From a virus, in IMG/VR virus record IMGVR_UViG_3300035034_000835, positions 1 through 30,402 of that record: 30,402 bases of DNA, one strand, 5' to 3'. Below, piece by piece: positions 752 through 19,449 of this stretch. Both the position numbers and the translations under genes were made by a program. How positions within the stretch are numbered: the first letter of the stretch is position 1; every line of letters begins with the position of its first letter. The notes beneath the pieces were generated by a model. That model searched no databases and had not been told where the DNA came from. It saw only the letters and a program-made list of their open reading frames with translations.

Positions 752-827
752 GCGTCGTCCTCTTGTGTCGTGGGGTCAACGTGAGGCGTCGCGCCTACTA
801 CAACCCCTGCTATAAAGACGAACATAG

Positions 828-901
828 TACCCCCGGTGAGAGTCGAACTCACAACTATGCGTTCTTGAAACGCACGCCTCTGCCAGTTGGGCTACGGGGG
901 C
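828..901 (-). tRNA. tRNA, anticodon CAA (Leu by codon table), short variable loop
   Basis: Reading the minus strand from 901, the acceptor arm GCCCCCG pairs with CGGGGGT (one G-U pair). The D arm is GCC/GGC with GG in the loop. The anticodon arm TGCGT/ACGCA is a perfect 5-bp stem around the loop TTCAAGA, giving anticodon CAA. The T arm GTGAG/CTCAC closes the loop TTCGACT. The discriminator is A and CCA is not encoded. CAA reads the leucine codon UUG, which is frequent in the large structural gene here. The variable loop is only about five bases, whereas normal bacterial tRNA-Leu has a long variable arm, so charging identity is uncertain. It lies within the leftward operon, a few bases after the VRR-NUC gene. 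Confidence 0.9.
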
Positions 902-4667: not shown

Positions 4668-6509
4668 TCATGTGCTCCTTAGTGAGCGGGTTGTGTGATA
4701 CTCCCCCCAACGGGGGCCGAGGCTGATGTCAACCTCGATCGGTACAGACACTATATCCGAACTGGTCAGCAGATCGCAAGCCGCAGACTCTGCATCGTGC
4801 GCTGACCGCACAAGTAGTAGTACCGAGTCGTGCACGGTCCCGACGATCTGGATGTCCTCACGTCGATCAATCTGGGTCAGCCCTCGCAGCATGAAATCGC
4901 TGGCGGTGGACTGGATCGGGCTGTTGATCGCCTGTCGGATCGCGCCCGCCCGGACGAAGTCGTCCGTGCTGAATGCATCCGGCAGCCGCCGTCGCCTCCC
5001 GAAGATGTTAGTCACGAAGCCGCCACTCTGCACGAGTCTCGCTTGGTGAATGTGCCACTCCGCCAGCCCCTCCCACCGCTGGAAGAAGCGGGTCCGGATC
5101 TCGCGCGCCTCGCTCTCTGTGAACTTGACCCCGTAGGTGTCCTCCGCGTACGCCACGAACTTGCGGTGCCCCATGCCGAACAGGAAGCCGAAGCCGATGG
5201 CCTTCCCGGCTTGACGCTCGCCGGGCGTCACGTCCTCGACGCTCCCCCCGGTCGCCAGCGTGGCGTTCATCCGGTGCAGGTCGAGCCCCTCCAAGTAGGC
5301 CATGAGCAGGGGGTTGTCCGGCAGCACGTCCCGGTGGATGTACTCCGCCATGACTCGCATCTCGATCTGGGAGTAGTCAATCTCGCAGAACTCCCAGCCC
5401 GGCGGCGCTGCCCAGACAGGCTTGAGCGAGCGCTTGACCTGCTGCATGTTGGGGTCCGACGAGGACAGCCGGCCCGTCCTGACACGAGCGACGTGGTACT
5501 GGCCGTGCACCCGCGCCTCCCTGTCCGCAGCGTCGATCCACGACTCTAGGAACTGGGCCTCCTTTGACCCGTCCCGGTAGTCGAGGATTTCCTGCGCCAC
5601 CCCGTAGCCCTCGCGCGCCAGCCTGTTGAGGACCCCGCTGGCCCACGACGCACGACCAGAAGGTGTAGTGTCCTGTACATAGAGATCACCGTGCTCGACC
5701 GCTGCCCCGGTGAAGGCGAGGAACCACTTGGACGTCGCCTCCCACGAGAGCGTCGGATAGTCACCCGGATCGAGCCCGTAGTACCCCGCCAGCGCCAGCA
5801 GGTTCATGGCAGCGGTGCCTGAGCGTGTCTGAGCGTGGCGGAGAGCAGCGCGAGCGGTGTCGAGGTCGAGTGGCATCCCCGTGGCGCTCACGCGCGTGAG
5901 AACAGCCTGCGCAGGGCGCACCGTGGACATGTACAGGTCGAGCAGGGCGGGCGGCAGGGCGGGGCGCTGCTCGTGGTACAGCCGGGCGGTCGCGATGGTG
6001 TCCAGTGCGTTGTACGGCGCGAGATCGAACCACGGCACGCGGGCCGCATCCTTCACGTCGATGCCCCAGTCTCCACCCATGAGGTGTGCGGCGTTGTTCT
6101 TGAGCCGCTTGCTCTCATTCTCATTGCGGAGGTGGGCAACCGTCATGGTGTCCCAGTAGATCGAGTCTGACAGGTTTACGTCAGTGTGCTGGCGGAACCA
6201 TGCCACCTCGAACGGTGCGTTGTGGGCGATGAGGTCGTGACTGAGAGAGAACACAGCGATCTCCTGCGCCATCTGCCTCCACTTGTAGCCCCACGAACCG
6301 TGCGAGTGGCCGAGTGGTATGACCCACGTCTCCTCACCCGGAGCCGTCGTCGTGTAGGACACGGAGAGGATCTGCGCACCCCGCTCTGTGTGATCCAGCC
6401 CCGTCGTCTCGATGTCGAACGCGACCGGGTCGCGCAACTTCGCCATCCACAGGAGGAACGACTTGTAGTCCTCGTCTGTCATGACGTTGTGGTAGTGAGC
6501 GTGACTCAT
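4668..6509 (-). CDS. polA-like: Family A DNA polymerase with 3'-5' exonuclease domain
   Basis: A 613-aa replicative polymerase. The N-terminal DnaQ-like exonuclease has ExoI at Asp 32/Glu 34 (FDIETTGLD), ExoII at Asn 97 with Glu 101 where Asp is usual (HNAPFEVAW), and ExoIII at Tyr 166/Asp 170 (YNALD). The polymerase half has motif A (DYSQIEMRVMAEY), motif B (RQAGKAIGFGFLFG, with Phe in place of the usual Tyr of YG) and motif C (VHDSV instead of VHDE). There is no 5' nuclease domain. Length fits T7-like/actinophage PolA enzymes. The start at 6509 overlaps the helicase stop (ATGA). It copies the phage genome together with the PrimPol and helicase upstream. Confidence 0.95.
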   Translation of the reverse strand: MSHAHYHNVMTDEDYKSFLLWMAKLRDPVAFDIETTGLDHTERGAQILSVSYTTTAPGEETWVIPLGHSHGSWGYKWRQMAQEIAVFSLSHDLIAHNAPFEVAWFRQHTDVNLSDSIYWDTMTVAHLRNENESKRLKNNAAHLMGGDWGIDVKDAARVPWFDLAPYNALDTIATARLYHEQRPALPPALLDLYMSTVRPAQAVLTRVSATGMPLDLDTARAALRHAQTRSGTAAMNLLALAGYYGLDPGDYPTLSWEATSKWFLAFTGAAVEHGDLYVQDTTPSGRASWASGVLNRLAREGYGVAQEILDYRDGSKEAQFLESWIDAADREARVHGQYHVARVRTGRLSSSDPNMQQVKRSLKPVWAAPPGWEFCEIDYSQIEMRVMAEYIHRDVLPDNPLLMAYLEGLDLHRMNATLATGGSVEDVTPGERQAGKAIGFGFLFGMGHRKFVAYAEDTYGVKFTESEAREIRTRFFQRWEGLAEWHIHQARLVQSGGFVTNIFGRRRRLPDAFSTDDFVRAGAIRQAINSPIQSTASDFMLRGLTQIDRREDIQIVGTVHDSVLLLVRSAHDAESAACDLLTSSDIVSVPIEVDISLGPRWGEYHTTRSLRST

Positions 6510-10370: not shown

Positions 10371-10581
10371 TGATGTACTCCTTGTGAATCTGGTACGGTC
10401 GAGTGCGTGTTACGTTCGCAGCATCTGCCATGACAGCACCGGGGAGCGTGCCGTACCACTCCACGAACAGTGCGTCCCTGTCTTTGCGCGCCTGCTCCCC
10501 TCGTTCGATCCGACCTGCCAACATGCGGAGTCTCTCCAACACGAGGTTCATCTCTGTCACGGCGTCCAAGACGCCCTCCAT
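10354..10581 (-). CDS. 75-aa helical protein, first gene of the replication operon
   Basis: The ATG at 10581 has no clear ribosome-binding site. A TAGTGT -10-like box at 10604-10599 would put the transcript start only about a dozen bases before it, so translation from a very short leader is possible; an internal ATG at 10551 is the alternative. The first half is a heptad-like helix (MNLVLERLRMLAGRIERG) fit for dimerisation. The second half ends with MADAANVTRTRPYQIHKEY, which resembles a helix-turn-helix. It could be a small DNA-binding regulator or a helicase partner. The 17-bp overlap with the PrimPol gene implies joint expression. Confidence 0.65.
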   Translation of the reverse strand: MEGVLDAVTEMNLVLERLRMLAGRIERGEQARKDRDALFVEWYGTLPGAVMADAANVTRTRPYQIHKEYISVSDD

Positions 10582-10714
10582 CCGGTAGCGGACGCGCTAC
10601 ACTAGCCTCTCCGGACACCCCGCGCGAGGGGTTGGACCGCAGTGGAAGGACTCGCTACCTTGGAGAGCGCCGCGTCATCCCGTGTACCGGCTGCTCATGT
10701 GGTAGTGGGCACAA

Positions 10715-10750
10715 GAGAGCCCCCGCCGAATTCTTCCGGCGGGGGCTCTC
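10715..10750. terminator. Perfect 14-bp hairpin, probable bidirectional terminator
   Basis: 10715-10728 pairs perfectly with 10737-10750 around an 8-base loop (AATTCTTC). It lies just past the stop of the 56-aa leftward gene. The rightward side is followed by a T-richer stretch (GTCTTGCCGTTCT), the leftward side by TTGTG. It separates the divergent control region from the replication operon. Confidence 0.75.
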
Positions 10751-10761
10751 GTCTTGCCGTT

Positions 10762-10932
10762 CTACGGGTTCAGAGCCGTGAACGCCCATCCCCTGTCACT
10801 GCCGCGCCCGTCGTCCATGAGGCGGTCGACGGTGGACGGGTGCAGCCGTATCGCTGCCTCGCGTTCGTTCATGGCACGGCGGTACGCCCAGCGACCCGCC
10901 ACGACGACGCCGATGATGATGAGCAACTTCAT
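10762..10932 (-). CDS. 56-aa membrane-anchored small protein
   Basis: ATG at 10932 with GGAGAGAAG upstream. The peptide begins MKLLIIIGVVVAGRWAYRRA, a short hydrophobic anchor followed by positive charges, which predicts the rest faces the cytoplasm. A charged soluble part follows (EREAAIRLHPSTVDRLMDD). It is a one-gene unit between its promoter (10959-10988) and the hairpin terminator. Function is unknown. The end of the soluble part (STVDRLMDDGRGSDRGWAF) has no recognised motif. Confidence 0.7.
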   Translation of the reverse strand: MKLLIIIGVVVAGRWAYRRAMNEREAAIRLHPSTVDRLMDDGRGSDRGWAFTALNP

Positions 10933-10958
10933 GTCTTCTCTCCGGGTAGGGGCTCACT

Positions 10959-10988
10959 ACTCTACCATTTAGAGTCTCTTGTCGTCAA
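10959..10988 (-). promoter_or_regulatory. Leftward promoter of the divergent pair
   Basis: Minus strand TTGACG (10988-10983), an 18-bp spacer, TAGAGT (10964-10959), followed about 26 bases later by the start of the 56-aa gene. It is back-to-back with the rightward promoter at 11025. Its -35 region is part of an 18-bp tandem duplication. Confidence 0.65.
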
Positions 10989-11009
10989 GTAGTCTCTTGT
11001 CGTCAAGTA
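10974..11009. repeat. 18-bp perfect tandem repeat spanning the leftward -35
   Basis: The unit GTCTCTTGTCGTCAAGTA occurs twice in direct succession (10974-10991 and 10992-11009). Each copy holds a TTGACG box on the minus strand, so there are two candidate -35 elements or two binding sites 18 bp apart. Confidence 0.9.
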
Positions 11010-11019
11010 GTTGGAGACG

Positions 11020-11077
11020 CCGACTTGACAACTCACAAACAGTGTGCTAGCGTTACTCTCACATCGCCCCACTACCA
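11020..11077 (+). repeat. 58-bp exact duplicated promoter-leader, copy 1
   Basis: Identical base for base to 11489-11546. It contains the -35, the -10 and the whole early leader as far as CACTACCA. The copies diverge exactly where each gene's ribosome-binding region begins. Confidence 0.92.
11025..11053 (+). promoter_or_regulatory. Middle-region promoter 1
   Basis: TTGACA (11025-11030), 17-bp spacer, TAGCGT (11048-11053), with TGTGC before the -10. It drives the 135-aa gene. It is the prototype of nine similar promoters and is divergent from the leftward promoter at 10959. Confidence 0.85.
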
Positions 11078-11089
11078 TAAGGAGCCGCG

Positions 11090-11497
11090 ATGAGCCTCAA
11101 TTGGAACGCAGCAGATACCGAGGTCTACGCTGACCTCATGACCCGTGGCGAGGATGCCACCTACACCGACATCGAGGGTGCTGTCCTCGATGCGATCATC
11201 TGGACCACTCTCGCGGTCGACCTCCCCGGCATCCCGAACAAGGGGGATGTGGAGGAGTTCGTCTGGCGGGCAGGACTGCTCGCTGCCATCGGGCACCACT
11301 GCTGCACCGTGAAGGGGCAGCCGTTCGCCCCGACCGCCGACGACCTCACTCGCTACATCGGGCTCACGACGAACGTGAGTCGCAAGACTCGACTCCAGTT
11401 CGTAAAGAAGACCCTGCTGCACGAAAGGGTGTCGTGGAGCCCGAAGACGCACCGAATCTTCGACTCCGTCGAGGAGGGGGCCGAGACTCCGACTTGA
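11090..11497 (+). CDS. 135-aa protein of unknown function
   Basis: ATG at 11090 preceded by AAGGAG. It is the first gene of the rightward middle region, with its own promoter and a 58-bp duplicated leader. The protein has a helical central part (VEEFVWRAGLLAAIGHH) with a CC pair and a basic stretch (NVSRKTRLQFVKKTLLHERV) that could bind nucleic acid. The last codons are Pro-Thr followed by TGA, and this TGA lies inside the -35 box of the next promoter. No family is recognised. Its first position downstream of the divergent promoters would suit an early regulator, which is inference. Confidence 0.75.
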   Translation: MSLNWNAADTEVYADLMTRGEDATYTDIEGAVLDAIIWTTLAVDLPGIPNKGDVEEFVWRAGLLAAIGHHCCTVKGQPFAPTADDLTRYIGLTTNVSRKTRLQFVKKTLLHERVSWSPKTHRIFDSVEEGAETPT

Positions 11498-11546
11498 CAA
11501 CTCACAAACAGTGTGCTAGCGTTACTCTCACATCGCCCCACTACCA
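11489..11546 (+). repeat. 58-bp exact duplicated promoter-leader, copy 2
   Basis: Identical to 11020-11077, placed so that the first gene's stop codon falls in its -35 box. Lack of any mismatch points to recent duplication or gene conversion. Confidence 0.92.
11494..11522 (+). promoter_or_regulatory. Middle-region promoter 2
   Basis: TTGACA (11494-11499), 17-bp spacer, TAGCGT (11517-11522). It drives the RadC-like gene and perhaps the two small genes after it. It overlaps the stop codon of the preceding gene. Confidence 0.85.
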
Positions 11547-11563
11547 AAGAAAGGCCATAAATC

Positions 11564-12007
11564 ATGTGTTACGACCCACTTGCCGGAGAAGCACCCGGCG
11601 CATATGTAGAGACGAGGCCGGTGATCGACGCGCCAGTGAAGGCCGCAACGGCTTTCTTCAAGGTGCTGCGTGACATGCCGGTTGACCGCGAGGTTTGCCT
11701 CATGCTCGTGCTGGACACCAAGCACGCCCTCATCACTACAGAGGTCGTGAGCCTTGGCAGCGTTGATCACACTTTCATGGCACCGCGTGAGGTGTACCGC
11801 TCTGCTCTGACGCACGGGGCGGCGGCCATCGTTCTCTGCCACACCCATCCGAGCGGAAGCACTGAGCCGTCGTCCGATGACGAAGCAGTGACCCGCAGGC
11901 TCGCCAAGGCAGGCGAGACCCTTGGTGTCAACCTGCTCGACCACCTCGTTATCGGTGGCCAAATCTGGACCTCAATGGCCCGTCGCGGGTCGCTTGGAAA
12001 CAACTGA
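11564..12007 (+). CDS. radC-like: RadC-like JAB/MPN domain protein
   Basis: A 147-aa protein consisting of the RadC-type JAB domain alone. The metal site is complete: Glu 43 (DREVCLMLVLD), His 93 and His 95 (HTHPSGS) and Asp 106 in the following SSDDE, the H-x-H-P-S-G...D pattern of RadC/JAMM metalloproteins. The helix-hairpin-helix region found at the N-terminus of full-length bacterial RadC is missing. The name reflects an old link to DNA repair that has since been questioned. Stand-alone RadC domains are frequent on phages and plasmids, where roles in DNA processing or anti-defence have been suggested. It follows an AAAGAAAGG ribosome-binding site and its own promoter. Confidence 0.9.
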   Translation: MCYDPLAGEAPGAYVETRPVIDAPVKAATAFFKVLRDMPVDREVCLMLVLDTKHALITTEVVSLGSVDHTFMAPREVYRSALTHGAAAIVLCHTHPSGSTEPSSDDEAVTRRLAKAGETLGVNLLDHLVIGGQIWTSMARRGSLGNN

Positions 12008-12042
12008 TAGGCACGACCACCACCACTACCGAAGGGCAGACC

Positions 12043-12189
12043 ATGACTACCGCAACGACCTACGCACCACTCGCTGACGACGTCGACGCGATCCGCGAGG
12101 CGGGGCGGGTGGGTCGGGACGACTACGACGGCATGGCCGACCCGCTTTACATGCGCGTCCCCGATCACGTCACGGAGTATGCACCATGA
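12043..12189 (+). CDS. 48-aa small acidic protein
   Basis: ATG at 12043 preceded by AAGGGCAG and, further up, the local leader motif CACTACC. The peptide begins MTTATTYAPLADDVDAIREA and ends with VPDHVTEYAP. It is acidic and has no membrane segment or cysteines. It follows the RadC-like gene by 35 bp with no promoter of its own, and its stop overlaps the next ATG (ATGA), so the three genes probably form one transcript. Function is unknown. Confidence 0.6.
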   Translation: MTTATTYAPLADDVDAIREAGRVGRDDYDGMADPLYMRVPDHVTEYAP

Positions 12190-12320
12190 TCTTCCTCCGC
12201 TACCTCATGTTCATCGGCCTCGTGCTGGGCGTTGGGGCAGGGGTCCACGACGCCTCGTGGCTCATCCTCGCCGCCGTCTCCGCCTTCGGCCTCATGAAGA
12301 CTCACTCTGACTCGACTTGA
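12186..12320 (+). CDS. 44-aa protein with two membrane helices
   Basis: ATG at 12186 overlaps the stop of the 48-aa gene. Two hydrophobic segments (about residues 2-18, FLRYLMFIGLVLGVGAGV, and 24-38, SWLILAAVSAFGLM) are joined by a short HDA turn, giving a small helical hairpin in the membrane. The terminal TGA lies in the -35 box of the next promoter. Size and topology recall holin-like or superinfection-exclusion peptides, but location among early-type genes and lack of an adjacent endolysin leave the function open. Confidence 0.65.
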   Translation: MIFLRYLMFIGLVLGVGAGVHDASWLILAAVSAFGLMKTHSDST

Positions 12321-12345
12321 CAAACTTGACAAGGTCCGGTAGCGT
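12317..12345 (+). promoter_or_regulatory. Middle-region promoter 3, with doubled CTTGACAA
   Basis: TTGACA (12317-12322), 17-bp spacer, TAGCGT (12340-12345). A second CTTGACAA starts 9 bp after the first within the spacer. This may be an operator half-site pair. It drives the 155-aa gene. Confidence 0.85.
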
Positions 12346-12379
12346 ACTCACTACCGCATCTACCACGACAGGAATCACG

Positions 12380-12847
12380 GTGACTGACTTGATCCACTAC
12401 CACTACTACAGCGGCCTTCCCGGTGGCTACGTCCCCAATCAAGCCGTCGTTCACTCGACCCTCATCGGGGCCGTCGAGGACATGCTCTACGACATGGAGA
12501 ACACGGCCGACAATCTGGCCGGCATGCGCGTCATGGAGAGTTTCGAGAAGAACGTCGTGACGGCGCTCGACATCTACGAAGACACGATCGAAGCGATTCG
12601 CACGATCACTGAAAACGAGGCGTTGGACGACTACGAGCACCTGTCGGCCATGCTCATGGAAGGCGAGTTGCAGGTGGTGGAGCCCGGCCCCTACGGGCAG
12701 CACTACTACTACGAGGTCACGGCCTGCCGGTGCGTTGATGTACTGCTGCACGACGAGTGCGGACAGGTCATCACTACCGACGACGGGATCGAGGGCTACT
12801 GCCAGACTTGCGACGAGGTTCTGTATCCGATTTCGGAAGTGCGATGA
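12380..12847 (+). CDS. 155-aa protein with C-terminal zinc ribbon
   Basis: The start is placed at GTG 12380, since it follows GACAGGAATCAC at proper spacing and lies about 30 bases after the predicted transcript start; extending upstream would run into the promoter. The body is acidic and helical (EDTIEAIRTITENEALDDYE). The last 45 residues have CRCVDVLLHDEC and, 13 residues on, CQTCDEV, a probable zinc ribbon. There is also a YYYEVTA strand. Zinc ribbons of this kind often mediate binding to RNA polymerase or nucleic acid, so a host-takeover role is possible but unproven. Confidence 0.75.
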   Translation: MTDLIHYHYYSGLPGGYVPNQAVVHSTLIGAVEDMLYDMENTADNLAGMRVMESFEKNVVTALDIYEDTIEAIRTITENEALDDYEHLSAMLMEGELQVVEPGPYGQHYYYEVTACRCVDVLLHDECGQVITTDDGIEGYCQTCDEVLYPISEVR

Positions 12848-12858
12848 TAAAGGTTGAT

Positions 12859-12887
12859 TTGACAAGTGCGATCGGCCCCGGTAGCAT
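12859..12887 (+). promoter_or_regulatory. Middle-region promoter 4
   Basis: TTGACA (12859-12864), 17-bp spacer, TAGCAT (12882-12887), 35 bp before the ATG of the 121-aa gene. Confidence 0.85.
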
Positions 12888-12921
12888 CTCTTTTACCCCC
12901 TCATCTACCACGGAGGTTCTC

Positions 12922-13287
12922 ATGAACTGGCTCTACTACTTTGACGGCTCTGACGGGGAGAACCCGTCTGCGTCTGACGACATGGTCGACTCGATCATTG
13001 CGCTCATGGAGCGACTCAAGACTGACGTGCCCGGCGCGATCATCGCAATGGGCGCTCCGGAGCCCCGCTGCAGCGGGCAGTACGCACACGTTCGGATCGC
13101 ATGGCTCGCTGCGTCAGGCCGCTTCCCGGAGGGCGTCCTGCCCGACGGCACCCTCGCGGCGCACGTCTCGACGTGGCACTACGACCCGGAGGAGGATCGC
13201 GCCGTGCAGGGCGGAACCGAGTACGACCTCACTCCGCAGCAGGCGTCTACGTTCGTCCGGACCGGGAGCATCCCGGCTAAGGCATGA
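12922..13287 (+). CDS. 121-aa acidic protein of unknown function
   Basis: ATG at 12922 with ACGGAGG upstream; the frame is open further left, but that part overlaps the promoter and the previous gene. The protein begins MNWLYYFDGSDGENPSASDD and is strongly acidic at the N-terminus. A mixed beta-rich core follows with HVRIAWLAASGRFPEG and an HVSTWHYDPEEDRA segment. It has one cysteine and no recognised motif. A one-gene unit, it lies between promoter 4 and a clear hairpin at 13304. Confidence 0.75.
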   Translation: MNWLYYFDGSDGENPSASDDMVDSIIALMERLKTDVPGAIIAMGAPEPRCSGQYAHVRIAWLAASGRFPEGVLPDGTLAAHVSTWHYDPEEDRAVQGGTEYDLTPQQASTFVRTGSIPAKA

Positions 13288-13303
13288 CCTAGGCTCTGAG
13301 GGG

Positions 13304-13324
13304 AGTGTGCGGAGAGCGCACACT
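13304..13324 (+). terminator. 8-bp hairpin between the 121-aa gene and promoter 5
   Basis: 13304-13311 (AGTGTGCG) pairs perfectly with 13317-13324 around GAGAG. It ends three bases before the next -35 box. No U-run follows, so termination is only probable. Confidence 0.5.
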
Positions 13325-13327
13325 GAC

Positions 13328-13356
13328 TTGACGCTCACTCCCCCGGCTCCTACTGT
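13328..13356 (+). promoter_or_regulatory. Middle-region promoter 5
   Basis: TTGACG (13328-13333), 17-bp spacer, TACTGT (13351-13356). It drives the 183-aa gene after a leader of about 50 bases. Confidence 0.8.
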
Positions 13357-13415
13357 TCTACTCACGAGGTCGCTCCGCAACCTCATCACTATCACATCCA
13401 CAGACAGGGACACAC

Positions 13416-13967
13416 ATGAACACCTTCACTGACGAGGCCATCAAGGTTCTCATGAACGCGCCGATTGCTCCCCCAGAGGTCGGGAGAGTCACGGCCCTGC
13501 TGGACGACATCCGCCGTCACCTGCCTCACGGTGCTTCCATCGATCACACATACGACCCCGATCTGCACAACCTCGTGATCACCCTTGACCCGGTCGCGGT
13601 CAGTGAGTCCGGACGGCTCGTGCAGCCGACCGTCGAGGCCACTGCCCTTGTCCGTATCGAGGCCAGTGGCAACCCCGAGGTCATGATCGAGGAAATCCCC
13701 GACATGGAAGGAATTCTGTTCCCCTACGGCATCACCCACCGAGAGGGTGTGCTCGACGCCGACTTGGTCGAGTACAACACCGAGACGTACAGCGTGACGT
13801 TCCCCGTGTCGCTCGTCATCGAAGTGGGCGTGGCCTGCATGACTAGCGACGGCAGGCTCACTGCTCAGGAGCAGGAGCGCGTCGAGTCGCTCGCCGCCGA
13901 CGAGATCGACCTGCCCAACAACGTCTACGTTGACCGCGCAACGCTCAACTCCGTTGAGATTGACTGA
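13416..13967 (+). CDS. 183-aa acidic protein of unknown function
   Basis: ATG at 13416 after GACAGGGACACAC. The product is rich in Asp and Glu and in beta-type segments (NLVITLDPVAVS, ATALVRIEASG, TYSVTFPVSLVIEVGVAC). A short helical N-terminus and a C-terminal DRATLNSVEID frame this core. No cysteine cluster, membrane segment or catalytic motif is seen. The single-gene unit architecture matches its neighbours. A surplus of acidic residues is compatible with a DNA-mimic or protein-binding factor, which is a guess. Confidence 0.75.
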   Translation: MNTFTDEAIKVLMNAPIAPPEVGRVTALLDDIRRHLPHGASIDHTYDPDLHNLVITLDPVAVSESGRLVQPTVEATALVRIEASGNPEVMIEEIPDMEGILFPYGITHREGVLDADLVEYNTETYSVTFPVSLVIEVGVACMTSDGRLTAQEQERVESLAADEIDLPNNVYVDRATLNSVEID

Positions 13968-13987
13968 CTCACTTGTCGGGGGTCGAT

Positions 13988-15103: not shown

Positions 15104-15694
15104 ATGACAGACCGAACCTACTTCCTCGCCCTCACCATTGATTCGATGACTGGCGATCACATGCTTCGAGAGTGCAGCATCTTTGGTGTCGACCGAGCGC
15201 TCGCGGACGGCGGCTACGGGGACCTCGTGGACGTGGAGTACGACGTCCCAGCCGAAGATTCTGAGTATGGGTACCTGCACTTGGAGAACGGGTGCGAGTG
15301 CAACGGTGAGAACGACGAGGATGGCGATCCGGTCGACTCGTGCACGGCTCCGGACGATTCGATGCGACGCTGGGACATTCTGTCATTTTTCGGTGAGGTC
15401 GACGGTGACACTCTTCGCGAAGTGGTTTGGCAGGCGGGAGGCTACGTCCGTGACGAGCGAGACCTTGGCGCCACTATGGGTGTCCTGTCCGCCGACGGTG
15501 TCGCTCCGGCCGTATCGGTGGGATGCAGCGCGCAGGACGGGATCGCAAGCATCTATATCACTCCTGCTGCGACTCACGCGGAGTCGTTGTGTCTCGCTAT
15601 GACTGGCGGACGGCGGGGGCTCGGTCCTGTGGACGACGAGCACGGTATCCCGGTGAGGATGCTCGCGGACCTCGCTGCTGCACTCCGCCAGTGA
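15104..15694 (+). CDS. 196-aa very acidic protein of unknown function
   Basis: The start is placed at ATG 15104 after GGACAGAAAC; the frame is open to 15050 but that lies over the promoter. The N-terminal half is highly acidic and holds a cysteine group (CECNGENDEDGDPVDSC). A DILSFFGEVDGDTLREVVWQAGG helix and a region similar in style to substrate-binding folds follow (SVGCSAQDGIASIYITPA). No motif is recognised. The large negative charge, own promoter and early-type location make it a candidate DNA mimic or inhibitor of a host factor, an inference only. Confidence 0.75.
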   Translation: MTDRTYFLALTIDSMTGDHMLRECSIFGVDRALADGGYGDLVDVEYDVPAEDSEYGYLHLENGCECNGENDEDGDPVDSCTAPDDSMRRWDILSFFGEVDGDTLREVVWQAGGYVRDERDLGATMGVLSADGVAPAVSVGCSAQDGIASIYITPAATHAESLCLAMTGGRRGLGPVDDEHGIPVRMLADLAAALRQ

Positions 15695-15739
15695 CCGATC
15701 ACTGGTGAGTGAACGCGCGGCACCGATCACCGGTGAGTG
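15694..15739 (+). repeat. 18-bp direct repeats with palindromic core before promoter 9
   Basis: ACCGATCACTGGTGAGTG (15694-15711) and ACCGATCACCGGTGAGTG (15722-15739) differ at one base. The second holds the perfect 10-bp palindrome TCACCGGTGA. They end seven bases before the next -35 box, so they look like an operator pair 28 bp apart. A GGTGAGTGAACGCGCGGCACC segment here (15703-15723) recurs at 16066-16086. Confidence 0.75.
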
Positions 15740-15745
15740 CTCGAC

Positions 15746-15775
15746 TTGACAAGACGGGCACTCATCTGCTAAACT
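15746..15775 (+). promoter_or_regulatory. Middle-region promoter 9
   Basis: TTGACA (15746-15751), 18-bp spacer ending CTGC, TAAACT (15770-15775), the -10 closest to consensus in the array. It drives the 84-aa gene. Confidence 0.85.
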
Positions 15776-15820: not shown

Positions 15821-16075
15821 ATGGCAACTTCTCCACTAGTTATCGTGACGGTCGAGGTCGTCGCCCCGGGATATGCGTCTCTCGTGGACGTGCCAATGGT
15901 GCCGAGTGACACCTACCTGAACCGCGCGGAACGCCGCGCCCGTATGGCAGTGGCGGTGAACGCCCTTCCCACTATGGACCTCGATGCGATCCGAACAATC
16001 GCAGTCGAGATCGACGGCGTGTCCGTGGCCTCCGGATGGGTCGTGGACGAGGGGTGGACCGCGATCGGTGAGTGA
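15821..16075 (+). CDS. 84-aa protein of unknown function, last of the promoter array
   Basis: ATG at 15821 after GGACAGAAAC, with a leader nearly identical to that of the preceding unit. The peptide starts with a beta-rich MATSPLVIVTVEVVAPGYAS, then a basic YLNRAERRARMAVAVNAL helix, and ends with VASGWVVDEGWTAIGE. It is the smallest unit of the array, and it carries the 21-bp repeat at its 3' end (16066-16086). No homology is recognised. Its leader and end repeats suggest it was copied with its control region from the unit before it. Confidence 0.7.
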   Translation: MATSPLVIVTVEVVAPGYASLVDVPMVPSDTYLNRAERRARMAVAVNALPTMDLDAIRTIAVEIDGVSVASGWVVDEGWTAIGE

Positions 16076-16090
16076 ACGCGCGGCACCCCG

Positions 16091-16114
16091 GGCCCTCGCC
16101 TCACGGCGGGGGCT
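16091..16114 (+). terminator. 9-bp tetraloop hairpin ending the middle region
   Basis: 16092-16100 pairs with 16105-16113 (one T-G pair) around TCAC, extendable by one G-U pair. It starts 16 bases after the 84-aa gene and precedes the repeat array. Followed by TCGCTCGTG, not a clean U-run. Confidence 0.55.
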
Positions 16115-16140
16115 CGCTCGTGTGCGGAGAGCGATGGCGG

Positions 16141-16263
16141 GTCACGGGCAGGGGTCCACGAGGGGTCACGGGCAGTAGGCGCAGTGCCACGGGCAGTAGT
16201 GTCACGGACAGTCACGTTCGACCGGCGGGGCAGTCACAGGGAGTCACTGGGAGTCACGGGCAG
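16141..16263. repeat. Iteron-like array: eight degenerate 11-mers, consensus GTCACGGGCAG
   Basis: Copies start at 16141, 16165, 16186, 16201, 16211, 16233, 16243 and 16253. Copies 1, 2 and 8 match GTCACGGGCAG exactly. Copies 3 (GCCACGGGCAG) and 4 (GTCACGGACAG) differ at one base, and 6 and 7 (GTCACAGGGAG, GTCACTGGGAG) at two. Copy 5 keeps only GTCACG. Spacings of 24, 21, 15, 10, 22, 10 and 10 bp are mostly near whole helical turns, so bound proteins would line up on one face. Such arrays bind initiator proteins at plasmid and phage origins, or regulators. Confidence 0.8.
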
Positions 16264-16354
16264 CGGCGGCCTTGGAGCGCGCCTGCGCGACTCGATTCGT
16301 CTGCTCGATAGTGGTAACCAACCTCACACCGTTTCATAAGGGGCCAGCCGAACT

Positions 16355-16390
16355 TATGTACGTACAATGTACGAATGTCCGGACAATGTA
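16355..16390. promoter_or_regulatory. Two 10-bp perfect palindromes 19 bp apart in an A+T-richer stretch
   Basis: TGTACGTACA (16357-16366) and TGTCCGGACA (16376-16385) are both perfect palindromes, and each runs into ATGTA so that ACAATGTA repeats at the same 19-bp interval. They look like operators for a dimeric DNA-binding protein. The region 16310-16412 is visibly richer in A+T than its flanks and could be a DNA-unwinding element. Confidence 0.7.
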
Positions 16391-16424
16391 GTTGCATATC
16401 GAACGATCAGATGCATGGGTCGGT

Positions 16425-16442
16425 GGGAGGGCGGGGCGGGGG
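16425..16442 (+). other. G-quadruplex-type sequence with one-base loops
   Basis: Runs of 3, 3, 4 and 5 G are separated by single bases A, C, C (GGGAGGGCGGGGCGGGGG). This meets the strict G3+N1 pattern for a very stable parallel quadruplex when single-stranded. Confidence 0.75.
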
Positions 16443-16446
16443 TGCA

Positions 16447-16523
16447 GGGGGCGGCAGCCCCCGCTGGGGGGTACGGGGGGCGAAGCCCCCCGGAGGTTAG
16501 GTTTGTGTCCGCGCGAAGCGCGG
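16447..16523. other. Three GC hairpins, two with GCGAAGC cores
   Basis: Hairpin 1: GGGGGC (16447-16452) and GCCCCC (16457-16462) around GGCA. Hairpin 2: CGGGGGGC (16474-16481) and GCCCCCCG (16485-16492) around GAA. Hairpin 3: CCGCGC (16509-16514) and GCGCGG (16518-16523) around GAA. GCGAAGC is known to form unusually stable mini-hairpins in ssDNA and occurs in single-strand origins and in Streptomyces telomere palindromes. Confidence 0.75.
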
Positions 16524-16551
16524 TCCTCACAAGCCCCTTGGGCGTAGTGAG

Positions 16552-16584
16552 CCCCTTGGTGCCGAGGGGTCGGGTTGTGACCCC
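16552..16584 (+). promoter_or_regulatory. Two overlapping, mutually exclusive hairpins
   Basis: Hairpin A: 16552-16569, CCCCTTG closed by CGAGGGG around a 4-base loop (one T-G pair). Hairpin B: GGGGTC (16566-16571) and GACCCC (16579-16584) around 7 bases. They share 16566-16569, so only one can form. This is the layout of an attenuator or switch, but no U-run and no regulator is seen. Confidence 0.4.
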
Positions 16585-16626
16585 GCGGTGTTAACCGAGG
16601 GGTGAGCGTCGTAGTATGGAGTGCGC

Positions 16627-16632
16627 TAACCT
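16627..16632 (+). promoter_or_regulatory. Probable late promoter, -10 only
   Basis: AGTGCGCTAACCT resembles the AGTGTGCTAGCGT -10 region of the middle promoters, and CTTTGTCAC follows as in their leaders. TAACCT is the -10. No TTGACA-like -35 is present at 16-18 bp. It lies 32 bases before the ATG of the first virion-module gene, so it may need an activator. Confidence 0.5.
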
Positions 16633-16664
16633 TTGTCACTGATACCCCTACACACGGAGCCGCT

Positions 16665-16961
16665 ATGCCGATCTCGAAGATCTACGTCGATTGCCCCGAC
16701 TGCAAGGGTCCCGGCCGGGCGGAGGTTCTGACGGACCGAGCGACCGGGGCGCGGCTGCAGATTGGCTGTCAGGACTGTGGACTGGATGAGATGTACCCGG
16801 AGGGCGGCCAGATGGACACCGCGTCCAACCAGTCCGCTGTCGCCCCTGCCAACACCCGCTCGTGGCCGGAGCACATCGGCGCGGGTTGGTACCGGCTGTC
16901 CAACGGACAGAAGGTGAGAGGTGGACCTGACGCGCGGAAGATGCAGGCAGCATTGGCGTGA
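16665..16961 (+). CDS. 98-aa zinc-ribbon-like protein opening the late operon
   Basis: ATG at 16665 after ACGGAG. The frame is open to 16602, but that would cross the proposed promoter. CPDC at residues 10-13 and CQDC at about 35-38 form a typical two-knuckle zinc ribbon. The C-terminal part has a short RSWPEHIGAGWYRLSNGQKVRGG stretch seen as a small beta motif (WYRLSNG). Its stop overlaps the GTG of the WhiB gene. Possible roles are DNA packaging accessory or transcription factor working with WhiB; neither is shown. Confidence 0.75.
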   Translation: MPISKIYVDCPDCKGPGRAEVLTDRATGARLQIGCQDCGLDEMYPEGGQMDTASNQSAVAPANTRSWPEHIGAGWYRLSNGQKVRGGPDARKMQAALA

Positions 16962-17272
16962 CACACCCACCTGTCTCCGCCCCATCGGCACTTCACATGG
17001 TCCCCTCGCACAATTGCCCCCGCGCCTGCTGCAACCACGACACTCTCTCGTCCAACACATGGTTCGAGCCCCCGCTCTCCTCGGCGGGTCGCAGCGCCAC
17101 ACAAGTCTGCATGTACGACTGTCCGGTGCGCGACACGTGCTTGCAGGACGTGATGACGCACTCACCCCAGCCTCCCGGTATCTGGGCGGGGCTGAACGAG
17201 AGGGAACGCATCACCCTGCACCGTAGAATGAAGAGGCGCACAAGCACAAGCACAAACGGGACGCCAGCATGA
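16958..17272 (+). CDS. whiB-like: WhiB-family Fe-S transcription factor
   Basis: The start is GTG 16958, overlapping the previous stop (GTGA); a later ATG at 16997 has no ribosome-binding site. The 104-aa product has an N-terminal cysteine group (Cys 20, 24, 25), then Cys 51, Cys 55 and Cys 61 in CMYDCPVRDTC, the G-I-W-A-G turn (about 74-78) and a basic tail (HRRMKRRT). This is the WhiB plan, a 4Fe-4S cluster plus SigA-binding turn and DNA-binding tail. The middle cysteines are spaced C-x3-C rather than the usual C-x2-C. Actinobacterial WhiB proteins bind region 4 of SigA, so it could activate or block promoters that lack a -35, such as the one just upstream. Confidence 0.88.
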   Translation: MTHPPVSAPSALHMVPSHNCPRACCNHDTLSSNTWFEPPLSSAGRSATQVCMYDCPVRDTCLQDVMTHSPQPPGIWAGLNERERITLHRRMKRRTSTSTNGTPA

Positions 17273-19449
17273 AGAGGATGTGCTCAGCGTGGGGCTGCGA
17301 CGAGGCGATCCCGCCTACATCCCGTGCTGACCGCATCTACTGCTCCCCTCAGTGCCAGCGCCGCGTGACCACCGCCCGAAAGCGCGCACGCCAGCGTGAG
17401 GCAGAGGGCGAGACTCCCACGCGCACTGACCTGCTGCTGCGCAAGATGGGTCTGGACGACGGTCCCAGCCCATCCCGTCCTCTGGCCACGGCAGCCACCA
17501 CCGTCGTGAAGAACCAGACGACCGCTGCCGATGCCATCTCCGCCACTACCCACCATCACATCGGGGGCGCAGGGTTCGACAACTTCGTCGCCTCCGGCTA
17601 CCCAGAGGACATCGCAGCACTGCGCCTGACGCAGACTGAGGTCTCCGCACACCTCTCAGTCTCTCAGCCCACGGTCGCAGCGTGGATGAGTCTCTGGCGT
17701 GCAGCCGCTGCCCACGAGGCAACAGCGCGAGAGTGGGCGAACAACCACGGCGCTCAGACTCTTCGTGAATTCTGTTTGTCATCGTTCGAGAACTTCTCCA
17801 GCACTCTGTTTCCCGACGAGTTGGTGCCGGACTTCCACGAGGAGTGGGATGGGGAGATCACCCAAGCCCTCAATGACGGGCAGCGCACGATGCTTCTCGC
17901 ACCGCAGCGTCACGGCAAGACCTCCTTCATGGTGCGCCAGTGCCTCTACCGCATTGCGAACAGCCCCAACATCCAGATCATCATTGTCGGCAAGACCCTC
18001 GACCTCGCGAAGAAGGTCGTCGGTGTGATCCGGCAGTATTTGGAGAACGACCCCCGGTTCGCGGAGATTTTCCTGCCCCCGGACACGTCGTTCCGCCCTC
18101 CGGGCAAGCGCGGCCTCTCGTGGACCAACGAGGAGTTCACGGTCAGCACTCGCACCAAGATTCTCAAGAGCCCTACGATGGTCGCCATCGGCATCGGCGG
18201 CTCCATCCTTGGTCGTGACGCTGACCTCATCGCAATTGACGACCCCATCGACCGCAAGATGTGTCTGAGCCCGACGGAGCGCGCCAAGGTCAAGGAGTGG
18301 TTCTTCACCGACTTCAACTCTCGTATTGAGAGCCACACAGGTGTCATCTACATCGGCTCTCGCCAGCACAAGGAAGATCTCCCCGCTGAGATCATCAAGA
18401 ACAACGCCAGTCGCATGAGCACAGGCTCAGAAGCGGACTGGAAGGTGCTCATCTACCGGGCACACTCCTCTTCCTGCCACATCAACCTCGATCAGCACCC
18501 CGAGGACCCGGAGGATGGGGACAACGACTGCATCCTGTGGCCTCAACTGCGCACAGCGCGGTGGCTCGCGGAGCAGGAGAGGAACAACCCGGAGCACTTC
18601 CAGCGCAACTACCTCAACAACCCGTCTTCCACTGCGTTCATGCCGGTCAAGGACGATGACATTCAGTGGTCCTATGCCTACGACGAGTGGATCTCGATTG
18701 CTACAGAGTCCCCGCACTCCAACAAGGGCCACAATCTCCCTCGTACGTTTGGTTCTCCCCACTCAGGCACTCACTTTGTGGCCTCTGTAGACCCAGCCGT
18801 GGCGAAGAAGAACGCAGCAGTGCTCTGGTGCTACTCCACCCTGCCGGTTCTGGTGCCTACTGACCCTGCAAACTCTGCAAGCAAGAAGATTCCCCTCACT
18901 TTGCGTGCTGTTGTGGACTACGCAGAGCCTCGCCCCGGCTCGCCCGGCGTCACAGACATCCTAAAGCAGTGGCACGAAGAGTATCGTGTCACTGATTGGG
19001 TGTTCGAGACGAACTACTTCGCGGACCAGATTGCCAATGACACAGACATCAACGACTTCCGAGCCTCCCGAGGGCTCAAGTTCCACACTCACTACACTTC
19101 CAAGCACAACAAGCACGACCCCCGTGCAGGCTTGCTTGCTATGCTATCTAGCATGGGAGCAAGGCCGACAGGAATACTCCTTCCGGGGACAACTACGGAG
19201 TCACAGCGAGCACTCACACGGTTCGTGAGCCAAATGCTCAACTACGACCCCGAAGCAACGCATCATTCGTCCGGTGCGAAACGCTCTCACCTCGATGATG
19301 ACCTTCTCATGGCCGCATGGTTCGGGTGGTATTGGATCGAAAGTCGCGTGAAGGCCCGGCAGGACACCATCGTGTTCGACTACGGGTCTGGTTGGAATGA
19401 CTTCGCACCGTCACACTGGCACAACGTGCCGTGGAAGGACATCGGGTGA
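17269..19449 (+). CDS. terL: Terminase large subunit with N-terminal zinc finger and HTH
   Basis: A 726-aa packaging motor. Residues 1-40 carry Cys 5, 10, 25 and 29 (C-x4-C...C-x3-C) followed by a very basic helix. Residues about 119-141 (LRLTQTEVSAHLSVSQPTVAAWM) form a helix-turn-helix. Then comes the ATPase with Walker A APQRHGKTS (211-219) and Walker B LIAIDDP (about 320-326), and a C-terminal RNase H-like nuclease starting at SVDPAVAKKN with a late acidic DDDLLMAAW motif. The family usually has about 450-600 residues. The extra N-terminus resembles small-terminase DNA recognition. No separate small subunit is recognised. The start overlaps the WhiB stop (ATGA). Confidence 0.92.
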   Translation: MKRMCSAWGCDEAIPPTSRADRIYCSPQCQRRVTTARKRARQREAEGETPTRTDLLLRKMGLDDGPSPSRPLATAATTVVKNQTTAADAISATTHHHIGGAGFDNFVASGYPEDIAALRLTQTEVSAHLSVSQPTVAAWMSLWRAAAAHEATAREWANNHGAQTLREFCLSSFENFSSTLFPDELVPDFHEEWDGEITQALNDGQRTMLLAPQRHGKTSFMVRQCLYRIANSPNIQIIIVGKTLDLAKKVVGVIRQYLENDPRFAEIFLPPDTSFRPPGKRGLSWTNEEFTVSTRTKILKSPTMVAIGIGGSILGRDADLIAIDDPIDRKMCLSPTERAKVKEWFFTDFNSRIESHTGVIYIGSRQHKEDLPAEIIKNNASRMSTGSEADWKVLIYRAHSSSCHINLDQHPEDPEDGDNDCILWPQLRTARWLAEQERNNPEHFQRNYLNNPSSTAFMPVKDDDIQWSYAYDEWISIATESPHSNKGHNLPRTFGSPHSGTHFVASVDPAVAKKNAAVLWCYSTLPVLVPTDPANSASKKIPLTLRAVVDYAEPRPGSPGVTDILKQWHEEYRVTDWVFETNYFADQIANDTDINDFRASRGLKFHTHYTSKHNKHDPRAGLLAMLSSMGARPTGILLPGTTTESQRALTRFVSQMLNYDPEATHHSSGAKRSHLDDDLLMAAWFGWYWIESRVKARQDTIVFDYGSGWNDFAPSHWHNVPWKDIG

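Follow-up and report, generated by a model that had tools for sequence, protein, structure and literature searches.

Gene organization of the window

The stretch of DNA analysed here, which we call the window, is the whole of an IMG/VR record, a linear fragment of 30,402 bases, and a nucleotide-level comparison gave no match to it among annotated phage genomes. Genes with AAA_24, PD-(D/E)XK, DNA polymerase A, SNF2 and PrimPol/AAA_25 domains lie on the minus strand as far as 10,370. The phage's own PrimPol-helicase and polymerase, which the preliminary description of this DNA had noticed, were recovered as a PrimPol domain with an AAA_25 ATPase and a family A polymerase, and, in agreement with that description, no separate initiator was recognised among the genes scanned. 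Small plus-strand genes reach 16,075; the last of them (15821..16075, + strand), which ends the predicted right arm, encodes 84 aa of unassigned function, and its codon usage supports coding. Then comes the region of a repeat array, and to its right lie the genes for a small zinc-ribbon-like protein (16665..16961, +; the gene that opens the predicted left end), a WhiB-like protein (16958..17272, +; PF02467, 1.9e-11), the terminase large subunit (17269..19449, +; 726 aa; phrog_38, 1.7e-55) and a portal-like protein, followed by very large structural genes. The C-terminal part of the zinc-ribbon-like protein matches phrog_6480 (Arc-like repressor). The GC skew tracks gene direction across much of the window and was given no weight in judging an origin.

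Other features lie away from the array. A tRNA-Leu (CAA) gene is at 827-901 (-), and a RadC-like JAB-domain gene (11564-12007, +; PF04002, 8e-37) opens the rightward block of small genes. Between the leftward and rightward gene blocks, beside a TTGACA-type promoter, the 19-bp sequence AGTCTCTTGTCGTCAAGT is repeated twice in tandem (10970-11008), forming a second candidate regulatory site. The small right-arm gene block at 11090-13983 is inverted relative to the related record IMGVR_UViG_3300023049_000088 (hereafter G004; L007, 4697-5742), and the window therefore has an extra divergent promoter region.

The direct-repeat array and the adjoining non-coding stretch

The longest clearly non-coding stretch in the window is 16076-16664 (589 bp). 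It had been described as the only gap over 300 bp, which is doubtful; 12008-12316 (309 bp by the listed ORFs) is also largely empty, as is 10371-11089, which is interrupted by two small ORFs alone. Within the longest stretch lies a direct-repeat array (16141..16263, +) with the consensus GTCACGGGCAG. Exact copies start at 16141, 16165 and 16253, copies with one mismatch at 16186 and 16201, and copies with two mismatches at 16233 and 16243, all on the plus strand. Thus, seven of the eight degenerate copies reported previously are within two mismatches of the consensus, whereas the eighth (16211) is a weak copy with four mismatches, having only GTCACG in common with it. The successive copy-to-copy distances are 24, 21, 15, 10, 22, 10 and 10 bp, and the tandem part of the array can be written as AGTCACNGGS with a period of 10 bp. 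The earlier impression that the copies are spaced by one or two helical turns was not borne out by a test of 10.5-bp phasing (p = 0.47).

The 10-mer repeat-density score was 51 at the array and 14 at the runner-up place in the window, and no score above 14 arose when the full window was simulated 60 times (Markov-2). The array is identical in the strain contig L005. No other phage of this group showed the GTCACGGGCAG unit; among other viral contigs, two unrelated ones, without similarity to the window, have two copies, and no DNA match to the junction was found among phage and plasmid records. The array, its non-coding nature and its position are features of the sequence itself, and the array stands out as an unusual element that looks cis-acting. 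Around the last two right-arm genes, we also found a perfect 21-bp duplicate (GGTGAGTGAACGCGCGGCACC; 15704-15724 and 16067-16087) and a near-perfect 22-bp duplicate (15610-15631 and 16103-16124), suggesting a local duplication adjoining the array.

The A+T-richer stretch and the strong single-strand structures noted previously to the right of the array are both present. The GC content of 16300-16419 is 45-50%, compared with about 62%, and the part at 16356..16390 contains the palindromic words ATGTACGTACAATGTACG and GTCCGGAC. G+C-rich hairpins then occupy 16447-16584: GGGGGCGGCAGCCCCC (16447..16462), CGGGGGGCGAAGCCCCCCG (16474..16492; single-strand DNA fold stronger than that of shuffles, z -3.3), CCGCGCGAAGCGCGG (16509..16523) and GGGGTCGGGTTGTGACCCC (16566..16584), the last of which overlaps the motif described in the next section. 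The three hairpins at 16447-16523 have loops of three or four bases and are of the GCGAAGC type, a motif that forms very stable single-strand mini-hairpins.

Comparison with Beephvirinae and the predicted terminal repeat

A related portal is encoded on more than 500 viral-contig stretches, and no relative of the portal was found in bacterial genomes. Among named phages, this portal is confined to Streptomyces podoviruses of the Beephvirinae type and one unnamed record pair, and phages of this type are also among the longest matches of the terminase. The window resembles Beephvirinae (Immanuel3, FlowerPower, Stella, WRightOn and Manuel) in the kinship of terminase and portal, in gene order and in a long non-coding junction, although the protein identity is about 25% over part of the terminase. 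The gene order of Beephvirinae is that of the window, with terminase, portal, giant protein and capsid genes running rightward and replication genes running leftward on the right arm. Five of the six Beephvirinae records examined have direct terminal repeats (DTRs) of 253-276 bp, and the sixth, Abafar, reads 396 bp. The distance from the left end to the start of the terminase gene is 624-679 bp, and at the right end up to about 1.4-1.7 kb is without an annotated gene in most of them. Since Beephvirinae with this gene layout end in DTRs, the gap between the right arm and the terminase should be the place where the ends meet if such a genome was assembled as a circle. The array sits in the corresponding junction of the window, 1.0-1.1 kb before the terminase gene, and this junction lies in the middle of the contig. 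Unlike Beephvirinae, the window has the zinc-ribbon and WhiB genes before the terminase, and Beephvirinae do not have the GTCACGGGCAG array.

At the right edge of the Beephvirinae DTR, a conserved GACCCGGGGGTTGTTAA is followed by GGGGGAGTG, after which the cut is made, and then by AGTCCCC. The best match of the window to this motif, GACCCCGCGGTGTTAACC (16579..16596, +), has one base missing and lies on the expected strand and at the expected place, scoring 19.0 bits, compared with 10.8 bits for the next best match. When any single gap was allowed, one of 300 shuffled windows contained a match as good, for a motif that had first been spotted by eye. Two near-identical contigs from other metagenomes, L004 and L006, start at 16309 and 16316, which is 46-53 bp to the right of the array. 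The contig starts give the left edge of a predicted DTR and the motif match its right edge (about 16600-16610), leading to a predicted repeat of about 290 bp (16309..16606), both edges of which are uncertain by tens of bases. The DTR is thus predicted in the window, whereas in Beephvirinae it can be read directly from the records. The predicted repeat would be present only once in the window because the two ends were joined in assembly.

When the likeness of 6-mer composition to Beephvirinae DTRs was compared, the segment 16301-16590 of the window only tied for third. At the right edge of the predicted DTR, L005 was the only right-arm contig, and it reads straight through. Such reading through the junction, seen in both the window and L005, is what DTRs would give, but a circular genome would give it as well. 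A precedent is the cyanophage P-SSP7, which was assembled as a circle although its end junction contains DTRs of 206 bp (PMC3350473). Synteny and the match to the edge motif can, like the array, be read from the sequence, and from them we infer the physical ends; the genome is probably linear, with DTRs of roughly 290 bp.

Proposed role at the genome ends and in packaging

Genome ends and packaging are favoured by where the array lies with respect to the terminase, by the gene order shared with DTR-ended Beephvirinae, by the match to the DTR-edge motif and by the starting points of the two contigs, and we consider it fairly likely that the array is a genome-end (packaging) element. In phage T7, the arrays SRL and SRR flank the terminal repetition, and a role at the genome ends has been proposed for them. 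Our repeat score, applied to the T7 record, finds the SRL array beside the DTR (98 at T7:261). Like SRL and SRR, the window array consists of short degenerate direct repeats, some of them about 10 bp apart, beside a terminal repeat, which is a predicted one in the window. However, the T7 repeat unit (CCTAAAG) is unrelated to GTCACGGGCAG, T7 belongs to another family and has early genes at its left end, and its arrays lie on both sides of the repeat, whereas the window has an array on one side only. Between 16600 and the terminase gene no second array was found, the sole repeat peak of the region being 16141-16263, and we therefore do not file the element as a member of the T7 SRL/SRR class. 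From the analogy, we propose that the window array works in a way similar to SRL and SRR.

The terminase itself could be what reads the array. A separate small terminase subunit was not recognised among the genes scanned, and residues 1-160 of the large subunit include a zinc finger and a helix-turn-helix (HTH), conserved in 28 relatives. The zinc-finger/HTH region (17569..17742, +) matches Pfam zf-CGNR (5e-4) and, weakly, HTH families, and has an AlphaFold2 pLDDT above 90. Structural matches of the N-terminus to HTH domains were modest (Z 4-6), and a Foldseek search with it gave no match at E 0.001 or better. We infer that this region may bind the array and that the array may have a role in cutting. 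Terminases with a fused N-terminal zinc finger and HTH (17269-17835 in the window) are conserved in a marine clade with more than 500 portal relatives.

In the proposed mechanism, the window would show both ends fused, which could mirror a replicating concatemer or be an artefact of assembly, and would be laid out as the right arm (to about 16300), one DTR (about 16309-16606) and the left end with the zinc-ribbon, WhiB and terminase genes. This would put the array directly on the inward side of the right-hand DTR, where SRR lies in T7. Head-to-tail concatemers would arise by replication and recombination, and the terminase, either through its N-terminal zinc-finger/HTH region or through a partner, would bind the repeated GTCACGGGCAG sites, so that the bound array would mark each concatemer junction. 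Cleavage at the DTR edge near 16600, which is rich in hairpins, would complete the terminal repeat and start the packaging of the next genome. Under such a scheme, what was supposed to be a replication origin would become a map, open to testing, of where the genomes of a large and mostly uncultured group of phages end. The scheme would also suggest how a terminase for which no small subunit was recognised might locate its cutting site, and would add a further case of assembled viral genomes that hide linear ends.

Alternative explanations of the array

The preliminary description had interpreted the array as a replication origin, in which iterons would be bound by an unrecognised initiator or by the PrimPol-helicase, and 16300-16419 would unwind for replication to start there. 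The direct repeats, the adjoining A+T-richer stretch and the hairpins are all present, as in iteron plasmid origins (RepA/iteron), which have at least three close direct repeats next to such a stretch; moreover, the phage encodes its own PrimPol-ATPase and family A polymerase, and genome ends and origins can coincide. However, unlike the iteron plasmid origins, the array has no neighbouring initiator gene, DnaA boxes or helical phasing. No Rep-type family was found among the neighbouring genes scanned, while in plasmids and prophages a RepA origin usually lies close beside repA (PMC7157519), and the replication genes of the window are 6-15 kb distant. Near-matches to the DnaA box numbered five in the window, compared with 5.6 expected, and none was at the array. 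Plasmid sequences also gave no match. The absence of the repeats from close relatives with the same replication genes had been named in advance as evidence against an origin. This objection holds in part: G004, whose terminase is 61% identical to that of the window, keeps the polymerase (55%), the SNF2 helicase (59%) and, in diverged form, the PrimPol (24%) and does not have the GTCACGGGCAG array, but a different repeat cluster is found at the same place. What stands of the earlier interpretation is the unusual and cis-acting-looking character of the array; nothing specific was found in favour of an origin, which now appears unlikely. Since the array is at the probable meeting point of the ends of a linear genome, it is more likely a tag for cutting and packaging, and the origin interpretation is the weaker of the two.

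An operator array, through which a phage regulator (WhiB, the zinc-ribbon/Arc-like protein or a right-arm HTH protein) would switch the terminase/structural operon, seems more doubtful. The array is indeed upstream of the late operon, and the next two genes resemble those of transcription-associated proteins; nevertheless, it is about 400 bp upstream of the first of them, with hairpins in between, and there is no recognisable promoter beside it, the only promoter-like match of the region being at 15746-15775. Eight direct copies without dyad symmetry would also be unusual for an operator.

We regard a partition (parS-like) or a recombination/attachment array as very improbable. Direct repeats act as parS in some actinobacterial prophages (PMC7157519), but neither ParA/ParB nor an integrase was recognised among the window genes examined, and Abafar, the single published relative that was checked, is reported to be virulent. 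It is scarcely credible that the DNA repeat is a by-product of a gene, the 79-aa ORF at 16072-16311, which overlaps the preceding stop by 4 bases and has the first four copies in one frame, because its codon score is negative (-0.32 bits/codon, compared with +0.2 to +0.5 for most window genes), GC3 bias is absent, the later copies fall out of frame owing to their 10-bp spacing, and it has no family match; the ORF was disfavoured as a gene on the codon test.

The junction in G004 and marine relatives

The strongest repeat cluster of the whole G004 record is at the same junction as in the window (score 43; next, 14), upstream of the zinc-ribbon, WhiB and terminase genes, and a homologue of the zinc-ribbon gene occupies the same place. 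The units of the G004 array are, however, the hairpin-like GAGACCGACCGACCTC and GAGAACGAACGAACTCG, not GTCACGGGCAG, and the Beephvirinae DTR-edge motif was not found in G004. Between close relatives, the arrays therefore differ in sequence (GTCACGGGCAG in the window, GAGACCGACCGACCTC in G004) but not in position. A lineage-wide way of marking ends, in which a terminase with a built-in zinc-finger/HTH reader and without a separate small subunit would recognise a fast-changing junction array whose sequence is replaced and whose position is kept, is a tentative extension of the packaging interpretation and on balance unlikely.

G004 and nine marine relatives with long upstream sequences share the order of leftward right-arm genes, a largely non-coding stretch and the terminase cassette. 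A clear iteron-like array is absent from the junction of most of the marine relatives. Contig starts are commoner 350-830 bp upstream of the terminase in these relatives, at non-homologous positions, and the breaks there may therefore only reflect variable sequence; for this reason, we dropped the clustering as evidence of ends.

Other features of the marine junctions were also observed. In L099, a long tandem direct duplication with a unit of about 85-90 bp is found in the end junction (6250-6450). The largely non-coding junctions before the terminase (for example, in L026, L053, L063 and L064) are about 1.3-2.0 kb long, have the words AAAAAAATTTTTTT and TTGTTTAAACAA in common and contain a small plus-strand ORF of constant length (85 aa).
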